40,828 bases of DNA from Saprospiraceae bacterium. GTDB taxonomy: Bacteria > Bacteroidota > Bacteroidia > Chitinophagales > Saprospiraceae. Numbering within the stretch: the stretch's first letter is position 1; the number at the start of each line of letters is the position of its first letter. A program made the position numbers and the translations under genes. Under the pieces are notes generated by a model that made no database searches, had not been told where the DNA came from, and was given only the letters and a program-made list of their open reading frames with translations. Shown here one piece after another: positions 4,128 through 40,063 of this stretch. Location: contig JALHQW010000066.1 in the NCBI GenBank assembly GCA_022841745.1, positions 1 through 40,828 of the forward strand. The letters are read 5' to 3'.

Positions 4128-5453
4128 CTAGTCAACGGCACGGTTGTTTGATAGGAAATTCAAACCCACCAACAGGAAGAAAAGGTAGAGCGATACCCCG
4201 AAATTGTTCTCAATTGTGTTTTCCACAAAAAAGGAGGAGAAGATGACGGCGTGCAGCGCCAGGAAGAGGGGGTTTCGCCAGTTTCTTCGATAAAAAAGCG
4301 GGAAGAAAAAGGCTACGACGAACACCGCCAAACCGACCAGCCCCGTGCCAGCGAAGATGGTCACGAGTTGGTTGTGGGGCATTTTGAATTTGTAGCTGCC
4401 AACCAGGCCCGTTTCATAGCGGCGATTCACTACTTGTTTCAAATCACCCGCTCCGACGCCAAGCAGCAGGTGCTCCCGCCCAATTTCCAGCCCAATTTTC
4501 ATGGAAGCAAAACGCTCCGAGTCGGGGTAGTCCGAGCCGATGCCTTGGCGAAACTGAAGGTAGTCCCAACGGGCGTAGTCCACCTTGGCCTTGAAGCTGG
4601 GAACGGCGAAATAGGCGATAATTGGCAAAGCCACCACCCCAGCGATGCCCGCCAAGCCGAGCAGGTAGCGTTTTTTTACCAAAACAAACCATGCGCCGAG
4701 CGCCAACAAGGCGATGTACAGCGACACCAGCCCGCTTCGCACGGAAAGGACGTGGATGAAGGCGAAGAGGAACAGGGTCAGGATGGCGATTAGGGGATTG
4801 CGGATTAGGTTCCCTGCAGGAATGACAAAATGCGGATTGGAGGGACTAGCGACTTCTTCATTTTTGGGTTGAAACGAGAAATTGTCGAACCAAAGTACGC
4901 CGCCGCCAAGGATGGCTAGGGCGAGCATGAGGCTGAAACGGATATGGTTGCTGGGGGTGGGCAGGTGGCCGCCACGGCCAAGGTCGGCCATCACGGCGTC
5001 GTAGTTGGCGATAAAATTCACCAGCACATAGGCGCTGATGATGGACATGATGACCAGCAGGAAATACAAAACGACATAGACCTCCCGTTTGCGCAGCGGC
5101 GGCATTGAGGCAAAGGCAAACGGCAGCACTAGGAAGGGCAGCTTGATACGAAGCCGCTCCAGGGTATAACCCAAGTCATTCGACCAAATCCACGAGACCA
5201 AGACAAGCAAAAATGGGATGGAAATGGCCAGCCAAGCCCGGTACTGGCGGTAGTGCTTGAAATTCTCCCGCAAGCTGTCCCTCAGCGTCAGCCGGACGCT
5301 TGGCCCTTCAATCTTCAACTGGAACAAGGCCAGCAACAACAGTGCTATCATCGAAATGGACAGCACGAACTCCGCCGATAGCACCATGCTCACCAACCAG
5401 ATGAAGAGGAAGGTGACGGCTTGTGCCTTGTAGGATTGAAGGAAGGTTTGCAA
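4128..5453 (-). CDS. O-antigen ligase/polymerase-like membrane protein
   Basis: The 441-residue protein is highly hydrophobic, with roughly ten to twelve membrane segments. A larger soluble loop at about 285-365 holds charged residues and the conserved H360 in PHNQLVTIFAGTGLVG, as in the Wzy_C (O-antigen ligase) family. Such proteins join or polymerise lipid-linked glycans at the periplasmic face of the inner membrane; whether this one ligates or polymerises cannot be told. The frame opens with TTG at 5453; the first in-frame ATG (5387) would remove most of the first membrane segment, and the first residues are encoded by an intergenic repeat, so the start is uncertain. Residues 207-220 (containing VIPAGNL) match a repeat also found in mfd and upstream of this gene. 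Confidence 0.78.
   Translation of the reverse strand: MQTFLQSYKAQAVTFLFIWLVSMVLSAEFVLSISMIALLLLALFQLKIEGPSVRLTLRDSLRENFKHYRQYRAWLAISIPFLLVLVSWIWSNDLGYTLERLRIKLPFLVLPFAFASMPPLRKREVYVVLYFLLVIMSIISAYVLVNFIANYDAVMADLGRGGHLPTPSNHIRFSLMLALAILGGGVLWFDNFSFQPKNEEVASPSNPHFVIPAGNLIRNPLIAILTLFLFAFIHVLSVRSGLVSLYIALLALGAWFVLVKKRYLLGLAGIAGVVALPIIAYFAVPSFKAKVDYARWDYLQFRQGIGSDYPDSERFASMKIGLEIGREHLLLGVGAGDLKQVVNRRYETGLVGSYKFKMPHNQLVTIFAGTGLVGLAVFVVAFFFPLFYRRNWRNPLFLALHAVIFSSFFVENTIENNFGVSLYLFFLLVGLNFLSNNRAVD
4804..4828. repeat. AGGTTCCC-TNC-GGGAATGACA repeat inside the ligase-like gene
   Basis: This 25-base stretch matches copies at 5463-5487 and 26873-26897 apart from two or three bases. Its centre is an imperfect palindrome, TTCCC and GGGAA with a short loop. 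Here it is read in frame, giving VIPAGNL in a loop between membrane segments, and is flanked by GCGGATT words. Confidence 0.75.
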
Positions 5454-5501
5454 AAAGAAGGATTTAGGTTCCCTGCGGGAATGACAATTGAAGGATTGAA
5501 G
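5432..5501. repeat. Composite intergenic repeat upstream of pheS
   Basis: GGATTGAAGG words at both ends enclose the AGGTTCCC-TGC-GGGAATGACA palindrome (5463-5487). The same composite order, word-palindrome-word, occurs inside mfd at 26861-26911. It overlaps the uncertain 5' end of the leftward ligase-like gene. Confidence 0.7.
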
Positions 5502-5546
5502 GTGGCAAACGGGAACGAAATCGTACAGATTAAACTTTTTACAGAT

Positions 5547-5554
5547 TACCTTTG
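5547..5554 (+). promoter_or_regulatory. pheS promoter -7 element (TACCTTTG)
   Basis: TACCTTTG fits TAnnTTTG and is followed by CCCC, as at other promoters in this window. It lies 90 bases upstream of the pheS ATG at 5645. No clear -33 TTTG is present, only a T-rich stretch at about 5536-5540. Confidence 0.55.
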
Positions 5555-5602
5555 CCCCTCATTTTTTATGAGGAAAATGAAGCAAGGAAGGTGTTCGAAC
5601 CG

Positions 5603-5644
5603 TTATTCAATCCTTCTATCCTTCAATCCTCCAATCCTTTCAAC
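5603..5644. repeat. TTCAATCC word run abutting the pheS start codon
   Basis: Five to six degenerate copies of CCTTCAATC (the reverse complement of GGATTGAAGG) run up to the ATG of pheS. They could pair with the opposite-sense words at 5489-5501, looping out the promoter in DNA, although only the downstream set would be in the mRNA leader. Confidence 0.7.
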
Positions 5645-6673
5645 ATGGATTCATTCGCAAATGTAAAACGCATCATCGAAGAAATAGCAGCGGCCAGCCC
5701 AAAGACGAAAGAAGAGCTGGAGCAGTTCCGCATCCAGTACCTCGGCTCGAAGAACGTCATCAAGCCGCTGATGGGCGAAATCCGCAACGTGCCCAACGAG
5801 CAGAAAAAGGAGTACGGCCAGCTCGTGAACGAGGCCAAGGACACCGCCGAGCGCAAATTTGCGGAGCTGCAAGAAGCGCTCGAATCGGTCGGCGATGATG
5901 CCAGTTTCGACCTGCTCGACCTCACCCGCCCCGGCGAGCCGCTCCCGATGGGCAGCCGCCACCCCATCGCCACGACGATGAACCGCATCGTGGGCATCTT
6001 CCAGCGCATGGGCTTTGCCATTGCCGAGGGGCCGGACATCGAGGACGACTGGCACAATTTCACCGCCATGAACACGCCAGAAGACCACCCCGCACGGGAT
6101 ATGCAGGATACTTTCTATCTGTTGAACAGCACGGAAATGCTGCTGCGTACCCACACCAGCCCCGTGCAGGCAAGGGTGATGACCTCGCAGAAGCCGCCCA
6201 TCCGCATCATTGCACCAGGCCGGGTGTATCGCAACGAGACCATCAGCGCTCGCAGCCATGCGCAGTTCCACCAGATAGAGGGCCTCTATGTGGACGAAGG
6301 CGTGAGCTTCGCCGACCTGAAGCAGACGCTGATGTACTTCGCACAGGAGATGTTCGGCACGCCAAAAATCAGGCTGCGGCCCAGCTTCTTCCCCTTTACC
6401 GAACCGAGTGCCGAGATGGACGTGTGGATTGGCATGGACAACGAAAAAAACTACCGCCTGAGCAAGGGCACCGGCTGGCTCGAAATACTCGGCTGCGGCA
6501 TGGTGGACCCCCAAGTGCTCGAAAACTGCGGCATTGACTCCACGAAATACTCAGGTTATGCCTTCGGTATGGGCATCGAGCGGCAGGCGATGCGGCTGTA
6601 CGACATCCACGACATCCGGCTGTTTTTTGAGAACGATGTAAGGTTTTTGGGGCAGTTTGGTTCTGTGGTTTAG
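5645..6673 (+). CDS. pheS: Phenylalanyl-tRNA synthetase alpha subunit
   Basis: The 342-residue product is the catalytic alpha subunit of the (alpha-beta)2 enzyme that charges tRNA-Phe. An N-terminal coiled-coil tRNA-binding arm (about 1-85) precedes the class II core. Motif 2 is visible as RVYRNETISARSHAQFHQIE, the phenylalanine-pocket segment as PSFFPFTEPSAEMDVW, and motif 3 as GMGIERQAMRLYDIHDIR near the C-terminus. Length is normal. The frame is open upstream to 5552, but MDSFANVKRIIEEI at 5645 is the family-like start and follows the repeat leader. pheT is not adjacent, which is common in Bacteroidota. Confidence 0.97.
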   Translation: MDSFANVKRIIEEIAAASPKTKEELEQFRIQYLGSKNVIKPLMGEIRNVPNEQKKEYGQLVNEAKDTAERKFAELQEALESVGDDASFDLLDLTRPGEPLPMGSRHPIATTMNRIVGIFQRMGFAIAEGPDIEDDWHNFTAMNTPEDHPARDMQDTFYLLNSTEMLLRTHTSPVQARVMTSQKPPIRIIAPGRVYRNETISARSHAQFHQIEGLYVDEGVSFADLKQTLMYFAQEMFGTPKIRLRPSFFPFTEPSAEMDVWIGMDNEKNYRLSKGTGWLEILGCGMVDPQVLENCGIDSTKYSGYAFGMGIERQAMRLYDIHDIRLFFENDVRFLGQFGSVV

Positions 6674-7594: not shown

Positions 7595-9028
7595 ATGTCA
7601 ATCACGAATATATCAATTTCGCCATCAAGGGCAGAAATTCAGCAAGGCCAAACCACCTGCCTCGCCCTCGTTGAGCATTACCTCGAACGGATCGAGGCGA
7701 CCCGCCACCTGAACATCTACATCGAAGTTTACGAAGTGGAAGCCCGTCAGCGGGCAAGGGAACTGGATGAAAAATTCCAGCAAAACTCAGCATCGGTCGG
7801 AAAGCTGTTCGGGGCTGTCATTTCGCTGAAAGACGTGATTTGCTACGCAGGCCACGAGGTCACGGCAGGTTCCAAGATATTGAAAGGCTTCAAGTCACTG
7901 TTCAGCGCAACGGCAGTGGAGCGGCTGCTGGCCGAAGATGCCATCATCATCGGCCGGGTGAACTGCGACGAGTTTGCCATGGGCAGCACCAACGAGACCT
8001 CCTGCTACGGCCCCACCCGTAACGCCGCCGACCCCACAAAGGTGCCGGGCGGCAGCAGCGGTGCATCGGCGGTGGCGGTGCAGGCGGGCACTTGCTGGGC
8101 CTCCATCGGCAGCGACACGGGCGGTTCAGTGCGGCAGCCAGCGGCCTTCTGTGGCGTGGTGGGCTTCAAGCCGACCTATGGTCGAATATCGAGGCACGGG
8201 TTGCTGGCCTACGCCTCCAGTTTCGACCAGATTGGCATCTTGGCAAACAAGGTAGAGGATGCTGCGCTCCTGCTGGAGGTCATGGCCGGGGCGGACGAAT
8301 TCGATGCGACCTGTACTGCGGAACCCCAGTTCCGCAGCGCTACGGAACTGGGGTTCCGCAGTACAAAATCTAAAATCGCCTATTTCGATACCGCCCTCGA
8401 ACACCCCGGCATGGACGAGGGGGTGAAAAAACTCACCTTCGATTTCATCGAAAAACTGAAGGCGGATGGGCATTCCGTCGAGCCGGTCGGGTTCGAGTAC
8501 CTCGATTTCATCATTCCGGCATACTATGTGCTGACAACCGCCGAGGCTTCGAGCAACCTCAGCCGCTACGACGGTATCCGCTTCGGACACCGGACCCAAG
8601 GGGCGAGGGACATCCACGAGGTCTATAAAAAGTCGAGAACAGAGGGATTTGGGACAGAGGTAAAACGCCGTATCATGCTCGGTACTTTCGTGTTAAGTGC
8701 GGGCTATTACGATGCCTATTATGCAAAGGCGCAGCAGGTTCGGAGGCTGATTTTGGAGCGCACGGAAGAAATTTTGAAAAATTTTGACTTTATTTTAATG
8801 CCCGCTTCGCCCACCCCTGCATGGAACATTGGGGAGATGGCCGACGACCCCGTTGCGATGTACTTAGCAGACATCTTCACGGTGCAGGCAAACATGGTCG
8901 GGATGCCAGCCATCGCATTGCCAATTGGTCAGCATTCATGCGGGTTACCGGTCGGGGTGCAGCTTATGGCAGGTAGGTTTGAAGAGGCCAAATTGTTGGG
9001 CTTTTCCGCCAACTTGAAAACCGCCTGA
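7595..9028 (+). CDS. gatA: Asp-tRNA(Asn)/Glu-tRNA(Gln) amidotransferase subunit A
   Basis: The 477-residue product is the glutaminase subunit of GatCAB, which releases ammonia from glutamine to amidate mischarged tRNA. The amidase-signature triad is at the expected positions: K79 in ISLKD, S154 in PGGSSGAS and S178 in SDTGGSVRQPAAFCG. Length and both ends are normal for Bacteroidota. Residues 240-257 are encoded by a perfect 52-base palindrome placed in frame, at a surface-variable position just after GADEFDAT where relatives have an unrelated short linker; the strand KSKIAYFDTALEHPG resumes directly after it. gatB is 12.6 kb downstream on the other strand and no gatC is recognisable in the window. 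The ATG at 7595 is the only sensible start. Confidence 0.95.
   Translation: MSITNISISPSRAEIQQGQTTCLALVEHYLERIEATRHLNIYIEVYEVEARQRARELDEKFQQNSASVGKLFGAVISLKDVICYAGHEVTAGSKILKGFKSLFSATAVERLLAEDAIIIGRVNCDEFAMGSTNETSCYGPTRNAADPTKVPGGSSGASAVAVQAGTCWASIGSDTGGSVRQPAAFCGVVGFKPTYGRISRHGLLAYASSFDQIGILANKVEDAALLLEVMAGADEFDATCTAEPQFRSATELGFRSTKSKIAYFDTALEHPGMDEGVKKLTFDFIEKLKADGHSVEPVGFEYLDFIIPAYYVLTTAEASSNLSRYDGIRFGHRTQGARDIHEVYKKSRTEGFGTEVKRRIMLGTFVLSAGYYDAYYAKAQQVRRLILERTEEILKNFDFILMPASPTPAWNIGEMADDPVAMYLADIFTVQANMVGMPAIALPIGQHSCGLPVGVQLMAGRFEEAKLLGFSANLKTA
8313..8364. repeat. Perfect palindrome (22-bp arms, 8-base loop) inside gatA
   Basis: The left arm 8313-8334 and right arm 8343-8364 are exact reverse complements, with loop CAGCGCTA. 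Arms begin GTACTGCGGAACC and end GGTTCCGCAGTAC. It is read in frame without a stop. Perfect arms in a coding sequence, and sequence unlike the surrounding codons, suggest a REP-like or Rickettsia-palindromic-element-like insertion rather than ancestral gatA sequence. Confidence 0.9.
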
Positions 9029-15671: not shown

Positions 15672-15742
15672 GGATTGAAGGATTGAATGGGCAAACGGCC
15701 GCTTCCTTCAACCCTTCAACCCTTCAACTCTCCAATCCTTCC
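15670..15742. repeat. GGATTGAA / TTCAACCC word hairpin between purS and rsmI
   Basis: Two GGATTGAA words (15670-15687) after the purS stop face four TTCAACCC/TCCAATCC words (15706-15740) that end two bases before the rsmI ATG. The arms can pair imperfectly. The same word family occurs at 5432-5501, 5603-5644, 26861-26911 and 34646-34681. Confidence 0.75.
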
Positions 15743-16411
15743 ATGCTTTACCTCATCCCCACGCCCATCGGCAACTTGGAGGACATCACCCTCCGCAGCA
15801 TCCGCATCCTGAAAGAGGTGGACAGGGTTTGGGCGGAGGATACCCGCGTGACCAAGCGGCTGCTCGACCATTTTGAGATAAAGACCCCGGTTTCGGCCTT
15901 TCATGCCTTCAACGAGCATGCCGTTACGACCAATATCGTGCAGCAGCTAAAGACAGGTGCCACCTTTGCACTTGCCTCCGATGCAGGTACGCCCGGCATT
16001 TCCGACCCTGGGTTCCTGCTCGTGCGGGAGTGCGTGCGGCAGGGCGTACGGGTAGAGTGCCTGCCCGGCCCGACAGCTTTTGTGCCGGCTCTTGCTGCCA
16101 GTGGCCTGCCCTGTGACAAGTTTTTTTTCGAGGGCTTTTTGCCCCATAAAAAAGGTCGCCAGACCCGCCTGAAATACCTCGCCACTTTGCCCTGTACCTT
16201 CATCCTGTACGAATCGCCTAACCGGCTCGTCAAATGCCTGGAGCAACTGTCCGAGTTTTGCAGCCCCGAACGACAAGCCTGCGTGGCCAGGGAACTGACG
16301 AAAATCCACGAAGAACTGCGCACGGATACGCTGGCCGAACTCTTGGCGTTTTACAAGGAGAAAAACGTGAAAGGGGAAATAGTGGTGGTGGTGGCGGGGA
16401 CTGGTGAATAA
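15743..16411 (+). CDS. rsmI: 16S rRNA (cytidine(1402)-2'-O)-methyltransferase
   Basis: The 222-residue SAM-dependent tetrapyrrole-methylase-fold enzyme opens with the diagnostic LYLIPTPIGNLEDITLRSIR, followed by VWAEDTRVTKRLLDHF and PGPTAFVPALAASGLP, and the SPNRLVKCLEQL helix. It methylates the 2'-OH of C1402 in the decoding centre. The family's additional C-terminal domain is absent, as in other Bacteroidota forms of about 220 residues. The ATG at 15743 gives the canonical start; the extension to 15683 is made of repeat words. Confidence 0.95.
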   Translation: MLYLIPTPIGNLEDITLRSIRILKEVDRVWAEDTRVTKRLLDHFEIKTPVSAFHAFNEHAVTTNIVQQLKTGATFALASDAGTPGISDPGFLLVRECVRQGVRVECLPGPTAFVPALAASGLPCDKFFFEGFLPHKKGRQTRLKYLATLPCTFILYESPNRLVKCLEQLSEFCSPERQACVARELTKIHEELRTDTLAELLAFYKEKNVKGEIVVVVAGTGE

Positions 16412-33782: not shown

Positions 33783-34784
33783 TTAATCCAAAATCACCGC
33801 CCCCGTATTGTTCGTCTTGTCGCATTCGAGCTTGAACTGGTCGGAGTCGAGCGAAAGGATGAGGCTTTTCATATAGCGGGTCTTCTTGCGCACGTCCACC
33901 TTGATGCGGCTGGTAAAGGTGCCGCCGGGCAATAACTCGCCTGAGTGGGAGGCATCTGGCTTAAGGGTTTGTTCTCCTGCTGGCAATGCGCCCCGTGAGA
34001 GTGTCGGTACGCCGGAGATGAACGATTTTAGTAGCACCCGCTCGGTCTGTTTGCTGTCTTTGCTGTAAAGATGGAACGGCCCAAAACCCTTGTTTGCGAT
34101 GGTGAATTCGATGGTGGCCGTCTTGTCGTTCTGCTCAATGATGCGCAGGCGCTGGAAATAAATATCTGGGCAGTCCTCGGCGATACCAGGGGGGACTGCG
34201 GCGGTGGGTGAAGCGTCTTCCTCGCCGCCCTTTCCAACGAGCACGGCAGATCCTTGGTTTTCAGGGGCTTTGGGTTTTTCGCCGGCCTTGGTTTCGAAGC
34301 CTTCTGCAGCGGGTGGCGTCGAAGCTTCCTGCTTTTGGGCAATAATGACGGGCACCTTCAGTTCCTTGCCCTGTACCGATTTGCCGACGCCCAGTTTGAA
34401 TGCTTCCTCGAAAAGGGCCTGCTGGATATTTGGCCGGAGGCCGCCCAGTTTATTGCTGAAAATGCTTTGGTCGAAGATGAACTGCACCCAATGCTCGGTA
34501 CCTTTTTTTGAAAAATCCACGTCCACCCGGCCTGAGTTCACGATGTTGAAGCGGAGCTTCACCCAATCATCATTGCGCTTGAGCACTTCAAAACTGCTCA
34601 GTTCGAGGCGGTAGCCACGGTATTTGACGGAGTCGCCTTCGGGGTAAGGATTGAAGGATTGAAGGGCTGAAGGATTGAAGGTTTGGGGGGGCGTAGCTGT
34701 TGGGGAAAATGACAGACCTGCGAGGCTAACCGTGATGGCGAGCACCCAAAAAAAACAATTGGCAGGTCTTAGATGGAATGACAT
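33783..34784 (-). CDS. Exported protein of unknown function
   Basis: The 333-residue product has a signal peptide (about 1-28, FFWVLAITVSLAGLSFS). A Thr/Pro linker (29-48) is partly encoded by GGATTGAA words (TFNPSALQSFNP). Two beta-rich domains follow (about 50-165, RGYRLELSSFEVLKRNDDWV; and about 225-333, DIYFQRLRIIEQNDKTATIE), separated by a low-complexity Glu/Ala/Pro stretch. Both domains seem to have the immunoglobulin-like pattern of CARDB-type modules, each dealing with NSGRVDVDF or NKGFGPFHL strands, so an internal duplication is possible. No family is recognised. Upstream gene is the Lrp-like regulator on the same strand. Confidence 0.7.
   Translation of the reverse strand: MSFHLRPANCFFWVLAITVSLAGLSFSPTATPPQTFNPSALQSFNPYPEGDSVKYRGYRLELSSFEVLKRNDDWVKLRFNIVNSGRVDVDFSKKGTEHWVQFIFDQSIFSNKLGGLRPNIQQALFEEAFKLGVGKSVQGKELKVPVIIAQKQEASTPPAAEGFETKAGEKPKAPENQGSAVLVGKGGEEDASPTAAVPPGIAEDCPDIYFQRLRIIEQNDKTATIEFTIANKGFGPFHLYSKDSKQTERVLLKSFISGVPTLSRGALPAGEQTLKPDASHSGELLPGGTFTSRIKVDVRKKTRYMKSLILSLDSDQFKLECDKTNNTGAVILD
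34646..34681. repeat. GGATTGAAGG word run in frame within the exported protein gene
   Basis: Three to four copies of AAGGATTGAAGG occupy 36 bases (12 codons) just after the signal peptide; on the coding strand each copy reads TTCAATCCT and gives FNP. It belongs to the same word family as the intergenic runs around pheS and rsmI. Confidence 0.8.
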
Positions 34785-39940: not shown

Positions 39941-40063
39941 TAAAATTTTGAGTGTTCAAGCCAAAGTTTTAGGTCGTAGGACGTAAAACTTTAGGTTATT
40001 TTGCTAAAATTTTACGTTGACCAACCTAAAATTTTAGGTCATTTCATCAAAGTTTTAGGTTGG
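39941..40063. repeat. Three consecutive AAAANTTTTAGG hairpins
   Basis: Hairpin 1 pairs 39941-39950 with 39962-39971. Hairpin 2 pairs 39981-39995 with 40003-40017 (13 of 15). Hairpin 3 pairs 40021-40035 with 40049-40063 (14 of 15). All share a TAAAA-C/T-TTTAGG core, and ACCTAAAATTTTAGGT at 40024-40039 is itself a perfect palindrome. The block fills the 300-base gap between the DUF2851 and XRE genes, together with the terminator. Confidence 0.8.

Follow-up and report, generated by a model that had tools for sequence, protein, structure and literature searches.

The gatA gene of an uncultured genus of, or near, the Saprospiraceae carries a palindrome that is best explained as a REPIN of a RAYT-carried repeat family, which keeps the reading frame and takes the place of the enzyme's native loop; we give this reading a probability of about 0.8. 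The gene lies at 7595..9028 on the plus strand of a 40,828-nt stretch of DNA (hereafter the window) from a draft genome (G000) whose closest named relatives are mostly Saprospiraceae assemblies. It encodes subunit A of Asp/Glu-tRNA amidotransferase (477 aa; 542.9 bits against the TIGR00132 gatA cut-off of 481.1) and is the sole copy found in the genome, with one match at E<=1e-60. The palindrome is translated as residues 240-257 of this open reading frame, as the original prediction had it, and both the frame and the two flanks of the palindrome are intact. The catalytic Lys-Ser-Ser was likewise rightly described as preserved: K79, S154 and S178, which we take to be the catalytic residues of the amidase, do not vary across 51 aligned GatA sequences. 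In a GatA tree built with the loop left out, the branch of this genome (0.062) is no longer than those of its neighbours (0.062-0.068). An AlphaFold model of the protein has a pLDDT of 89.7 overall and of about 70 across residues 241-260, which are mostly coil with a helix on one side and a strand on the other.

The palindrome spans 54 nt (8312..8365, assigned to no strand), is complementary at 26 of 27 pairs, and is read in frame as CTAEPQFRSATELGFRST. It had been placed at 8313-8364 with 22-nt arms and an 8-base loop; this is the same feature, with perfect arms that extend to 23 nt (8312-8334 and 8343-8365) and 8 nt between them, and the sole mismatch over the 54 nt is C vs A at pair 24. The single palindrome is real but is composed of two shorter hairpins that face each other, namely two REP-like units of the form GTACTGCGGAACCCCAGTTCCGCAG and a near-copy on the opposite strand. 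Unit 1 (8313..8337, plus strand) consists of a GTAC foot followed by a CTGCGGAAC-CCCA-GTTCCGCAG hairpin, and unit 2 (8340..8364, minus strand) is its inverted copy with one difference. The gatA copy is therefore two inverted REP hairpins in a REPIN-like layout with a short spacer. Triplet shuffling of the window, repeated 20 times, gave longest hairpin arms of 8-11 nt, against 23 nt in gatA. The element folds as RNA at -49.4 kcal/mol (z -9.59), and none of 200 shuffles folded as well. It is open in five of six frames, so there are few stops to avoid.

The element belongs to a dispersed family. Its 14-nt core, GGAACCCCAGTTCC, has 37 exact matches at 16 sites of its own genome (gatA included, C24 counted once), where base count alone would give about 0.06. 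Exact matches alone were used, since a count at up to two mismatches hardly rose over the control (142 vs 133) and was dropped. Arms unique in the genome, the outcome that the original prediction had named as refuting it, were partly borne out: in the search with the element, which scored 40 of its 48 candidates, the 22-nt arm did not recur exactly, the best other hairpin pair being 81-82% identical over 55-64 nt and half units at most 95% identical over 20 nt, and only the core is exactly repeated. At three of the 16 sites (gatA, HsdR and a PRK06148 fusion) the core is read in frame within a gene supported by homology; 12 were not placed in supported coding sequence, at an uneven depth of inspection. 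The remaining site is within the repeat region of a large adhesin-like protein, whose own sequence probably accounts for the peptide. In these adhesin-like repeats (L030, 2402-7999, minus strand), the codons for GTPVPAG or GTPVPTG coincide exactly with the REP core at three positions; chance or conversion may account for this, or it may point to the origin of such cores. SprB-like repeats on C4, with three of the 37 core matches, were excluded from the in-frame set because GTPVPAG fits a repeated motif of the host protein.

Across 41 distinct units from 18 loci, the bases before the stem are GTA in 39, and the foot reads GTAC in 25, GTAG in 6, GTAA in 4, GTAT in 4 and otherwise in 2 (one of them a non-member). 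The canonical GT[AG]G foot of REPs is thus mostly absent from these 41 units; according to PMC6006769, classes 2.6 and 3 also go without it, so that its absence is no bar to RAYT association in general. REPINs are expected to be extragenic and this copy lies inside gatA, a location for which intragenic REPs are the published exception (PMC3733652). Searched against 13 congeners, the element found matches (E<=0.05) in only 5. One REPIN of the family has similar flanks in G000 (C24:31390-31444) and in G011 (C289:9177-9239), and is probably one old insertion kept across species.

A REP-associated Y1 transposase gene, which the original prediction had suggested looking for, was found on C24 among the family copies. 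Family hairpins stand on both sides of this RAYT-type gene, a few upstream and an array downstream. Its product scores just under the cut-off of NCBIfam REP_Tyr_transpos (NF047646; E 6e-21, 74.9 bits against 80), passes that of Pfam Y1_Tnp (24.8 bits against 23) and matches the TnpArep structure 4er8 in the PDB at E 5.9e-6. It is a predicted transposase by pattern, with NHVH as the HUH motif and YILNNP around the catalytic Tyr; its W site, read by eye, is SFWESESYD, that is W-E and not W-Q. The motif pattern search missed 5 of 17 RAYTs and placed the W motif wrongly in some rows. At E<=1e-10 the C24 RAYT has matches in 14 of 60 genomes, its own included. Several of these RAYTs have hairpins of their own on their flanks, and the hairpin sequence varies from RAYT to RAYT. 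The RAYTs on C51 of G001 and C54 of G008 are 66% identical to the C24 RAYT and are flanked by CCGCCGAACCCCAGTTCGGCGG-type hairpins. The repeats that flank the C24 gene have stem bases (ACACCGGAAC, ACTCCGAAAC) that differ from those of the gatA copy, and because of this the partner of the gatA copy is proposed from the common core: the RAYT link is direct for the family, and a RAYT of this kind would be the probable mover of the gatA copy.

The genome also holds a second type of RAYT. On C2, an array surrounds a RAYT gene with the motifs NHFH and YIHHNP, whose own C-terminal portion contains four in-frame palindrome copies. It matches NF047646 at E 2e-13 (50.4 bits, below the cut-off of 80), has no significant match to 4er8 (E 0.59), and by motif resembles the Bacteroidetes subclass 2.6, or group 5, as described in PMC6006769. 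A survey of 60 stretches (1.2 Mb of the 8.4-Mb genome), with open reading frames taken without gene calling, yielded 125 perfect hairpins with arms of at least 12 nt, against none in 0.4 Mb of triplet-shuffled sequence. Many of these are 33-35 nt palindromes and others are terminator-like; some lie inside Pfam domains, namely gamma-glutamyltranspeptidase, NRPS condensation, HATPase_c and HsdR ResIII. In long open reading frames there were 14 hits, five of which come from one array region (L288) and several others from frames that may not be genes. The corresponding surveys of G004 and G029 gave 2 in 0.4 Mb and 1 in 0.33 Mb, a difference that is suggestive at most, as these stretches are smaller and their GC contents are 0.425 and 0.387 vs 0.501.

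Several other repeats were seen in passing. In L288 (15041-18060, on C2), an hsdR-like frame runs into a 33-nt palindrome array, after which comes an hsdM-like gene (both identified by eye). In L281 (19806-19890), a palindrome with 41-nt arms lies in an NRPS/PKS-like open reading frame of 2701 codons. The window itself opens at the contig start with an array of a 59-nt unit with 35-nt palindromes (30-324; TAGTGAGGGCGTGACT...AGTCACACCCTCACTA), which resemble the 33-35 nt class, and near the contig end there is an AT-rich repeat cluster with a TAAAATTTTAGGT core (39941-40060). Tandem repeats of 8 nt, of the TTCAATCC type or its complement, occur at 5598-5658, 15699-15759 and 34646-34692.

Within GatA, the element stands in place of nearly all of one loop. 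The codons between DATC and KIAYF (8315..8371, plus strand) encode 19 residues. When this GatA is aligned with 29 relatives from DATC to KIAYF, the loop exceeds the usual 17-18 residues by one or two, so that the 54-nt element has replaced a native loop and not added 18 residues. Residues 240-257 are thus not the insertion that they had been taken for. The loop has 18 residues in most GatA outside the genus in this alignment and in 60 of the 78 named relatives that could be parsed (80 taken, two unparsed), where a pattern of the SxxPVxAYSxxLxFxxKA type recurs, and the REP-coded ELGF sits roughly at the LxF position of the relatives. The solved GatA 2df4 aligns without gaps through this stretch. 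Loop length by itself is no proof of replacement, as the eight palindrome-free congeners span 16-21 residues (17 in G004, G006, G008 and G011; 16 in G007; 19 in G012; 21 in G003 and G005). The palindrome is nearly perfect, which suggests either a recent event or arms kept alike by conversion.

Judged by sequence comparison, the same loop has been occupied recurrently, with other palindromes standing there in congeners. In G001, the gatA loop holds CCGCCGAACTGGAGTTCGGCGG, an exact 22-nt copy of the hairpins found on both sides of the RAYT on C58 (L119), one of the two being on the opposite strand. In G002, it holds GAGGTGACACCTTTTCAAAAGGTGTCACCTC and a further half, and the half-site GAGGTGACACCTTTT has 115 matches in that genome at up to one mismatch, against 0 for the control. 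Three copies of this 33-nt palindrome stand on C513 of G002 just before a RAYT-like open reading frame with NHFH, which shares 40% identity with the C2 RAYT across 187 aa; the open frame ends within the matched stretch, so that this RAYT copy may be broken. On the same contig (L396, about 4500-6400), palindromes of the 33-nt family were also seen in frame in an open reading frame of 1067 codons. The gatA loops of G009 and G010 carry C-rich palindromes, which we do not accept as proven elements: CCCCCCTNNNGGGGGG finds only its own copy in G009, and 12 in G010.

Five perfect hairpins with arms of at least 8 nt were found among 13 GatA genes of the genus, four of them in the loop; among 17 others, one of seven touches it. 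In eight of the 13, the loop lacks any perfect hairpin of at least 7 pairs, and no palindrome was seen there. Four of 80 named relatives (two unparsed) have a loop hairpin with arms of at least 8 nt, and three of these four are genus members already counted. The GatA tree pairs G009 with G010 as sisters and places G000 and G001 together in a group that it does not resolve. Two independent occupations are thus the minimum, with three or more perhaps required, and G000 and G001 may share one.

Could such a palindrome have been made in place, by template switching that perfected a native quasi-palindrome in the loop without any mobile element? The loop was indeed replaced rather than lengthened, and some palindromes at the same sites are unique, such as that in gatA of G009 (one match) and that in an oxidoreductase-like protein of G007 described below. 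Against this, the exact 14-nt core is common to gatA and 15 other sites, many of which have the REPIN layout in common, RAYT-flanking hairpins of G001 are repeated exactly, over 22 nt, in its gatA, and the half-site family of G002 has its 115 matches over a control of 0. An in-place origin is improbable and strongly disfavoured for the gatA palindrome.

Copies of the family also lie in frame in other conserved genes. In PurL of G001, 21 REP-coded residues stand where AKNDS or similar is found in all nine rows that cover the site (10 given). In HsdR of G000 on C17, four REP repeats of 30 nt are read in frame together with one inverted unit, and at the same residue its paralogue on C1 (89-90% identical) has a different palindrome, with perfect 16-nt arms. 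In G001, a ferredoxin-domain oxidoreductase-like protein (named by eye) carries a REPIN where its G007 orthologue has another palindrome, the stretch being 4 residues longer in G001; the G007 palindrome finds only itself in G007 within 3 mismatches, and 20 places in G010 within 2-3 mismatches. The PRK06148 aminotransferase fusion on C61 of G000 has a REPIN in frame, in a linker that is one residue longer than in G001 and G013, shorter than in G011 and longer than in the other five orthologues measured (three of 11 left unmeasured). Homologues without an in-frame copy exist for all four, that is, for PurL, HsdR, PRK06148 and the oxidoreductase-like protein. Elements of 18-21 residues are accompanied by net length gains of about +2 in gatA, +16 in PurL, +4 in the oxidoreductase-like protein (vs G007) and +1 in PRK06148 (vs G001); overwriting is frequent within this small gene set, and linkers vary in length without palindromes too. 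A half match in IleRS of G011 was not counted, as native sequence is suspected there, nor was the G011 PRK06148 insert, which is weakly palindromic (6-nt arms by eye). At the HsdR variable site, G043 (L254) has a stretch that resembles a GIY-YIG domain in the alignment.

The copies in gatA, PurL, the oxidoreductase-like protein and an NRPS of G008 are read in a common frame, AEPQF...AELGF or its second half, and those in HsdR and PRK06148 in other frames than gatA. Palindromes read in frame in unrelated proteins, four of them in the same frame, are also what would be expected of a selfish repeat like the Rickettsia palindromic elements, spread by an unknown mechanism and matching the core of the RAYT repeats by coincidence. 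This account is similarly improbable, as RAYT genes stand among copies with the same core in G000, G001 and G008. We know of no RAYT partner for the Rickettsia palindromic elements, and the likeness to them drawn in the original prediction holds as an analogy (palindromic, in frame, in unrelated proteins) that stops at the RAYT genes found among the copies here. The broader claim of a palindromic mobile element in coding genes holds in its dispersed family, its RAYT-type gene among the copies and its in-frame copies, and fails in one respect, that the element in gatA is not an added insertion.

A hairpin kept in gatA for a function in mRNA or DNA, such as translational pausing or transcript control, would fit the very stable fold and the congener palindromes at the same place. 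It is very improbable given that 8 of 13 genus GatA genes show neither a perfect loop hairpin of at least 7 pairs nor a palindrome there, that loop hairpins with arms of at least 8 nt occur in only 4 of the 80 named relatives (two unparsed; three of the four are genus members), and that sequences and stabilities vary widely. An assembly artefact or chimera at a repeat, which a draft of 178 contigs with N runs in other REP arrays might raise, is extremely improbable, since the gatA frame and both flanks are intact, separate assemblies also have palindromes in the GatA loop, and the gatA copy shares no more than 81-82% identity with the other full pairs found, which makes a collapse there unlikely.

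Under the preferred reading, a REPIN of a RAYT-carried family, the RAYT would nick REP single-stranded DNA and copy the REP into new sites. Most insertions into coding sequence would be purged, and the survivors would be those of frame-keeping length, with no stop in frame, in a tolerant surface loop. The native GatA loop would have disappeared together with the insertion or shortly afterwards, as the palindrome is still almost perfect. A more speculative extension, which we consider possible but doubtful, is that certain loops in the genus are exchange sites, at which palindromes from different RAYT systems replace the native sequence or each other and leave the length little changed, hairpins or tolerant loops being targeted by templated replacement and not by simple insertion. 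Candidate cases are GatA, with REPs of YILNNP-type RAYTs in G000 and G001 and the 33-nt repeat beside an NHFH-type RAYT in G002, the two HsdR paralogues of one genome, and the oxidoreductase-like protein of G001 vs G007. The genus offers several loci and two RAYT types for telling insertion from replacement, and gatA shows in detail, against its homologues, how a RAYT-linked repeat can rewrite part of an essential enzyme. It also links the old puzzle of in-frame palindromes, as in the Rickettsia elements and intragenic REPs, to a candidate enzyme.

Among known systems, the nearest is REP/REPIN with RAYT (TnpAREP), by motif subclass 2.4, or RAYT group 4 (PMC6006769, PMC3116915). The points in common are inverted hairpin pairs, a Y1 transposase gene (NHVH, YILNNP) surrounded by copies, and several families per genus beside different RAYTs. 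Of the subclass 2.4 motifs NH[IFV]H, WQ and YIxNNP, the first and last fit the C24 RAYT by pattern, and the W motif, read by eye, differs. The system departs from those described in its foot (GTA and any base vs GT[AG]G), in W-E vs W-Q, in its modest copy number, and in that the copy lies in gatA, in place of a loop. REPINs were defined in PMC3116915, where just 14 of the most abundant 16-mers overlap genes, and the GTAG guide is treated in PMC8266576. Genes for subclass 2.4 tnpAREP are themselves reported to carry in-frame REPs (PMC6006769). Rickettsia palindromic elements are likewise palindromic, in frame and tolerated in unrelated proteins (PMC10969869, PMC3733652), but measure about 150 bp vs about 54 nt with a RAYT family here. 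Coding palindromes in the mitochondria of Nematomorpha are also perfect inverted repeats in translated genes (PMC6649704); there both arms encode conserved residues, and the abstract describes no dispersed family. A literature search over titles and the openings of abstracts gave no REPs of gatA or Saprospiraceae among the matches listed. The closest precedent is PMC3733652, in which intragenic GTAG/CGTC REPs, single or as dimers, lie in frame in open reading frames of many species with a proposed location in loops, and in which different REPs occupy about the same site in Xanthomonas recB; the passages of it compared here do not name gatA among such genes. In-frame REPs and same-site occupation by different REPs are common to that work and ours, which differs from it, as far as those passages go, in comparing loop lengths with homologues and in that the same loop holds families beside two RAYT types. 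In-frame REPs inside genes are thus already published (PMC3733652, PMC6006769), and what is unusual here is replacement together with recurrent occupation of the same site, by a mechanism that we infer.
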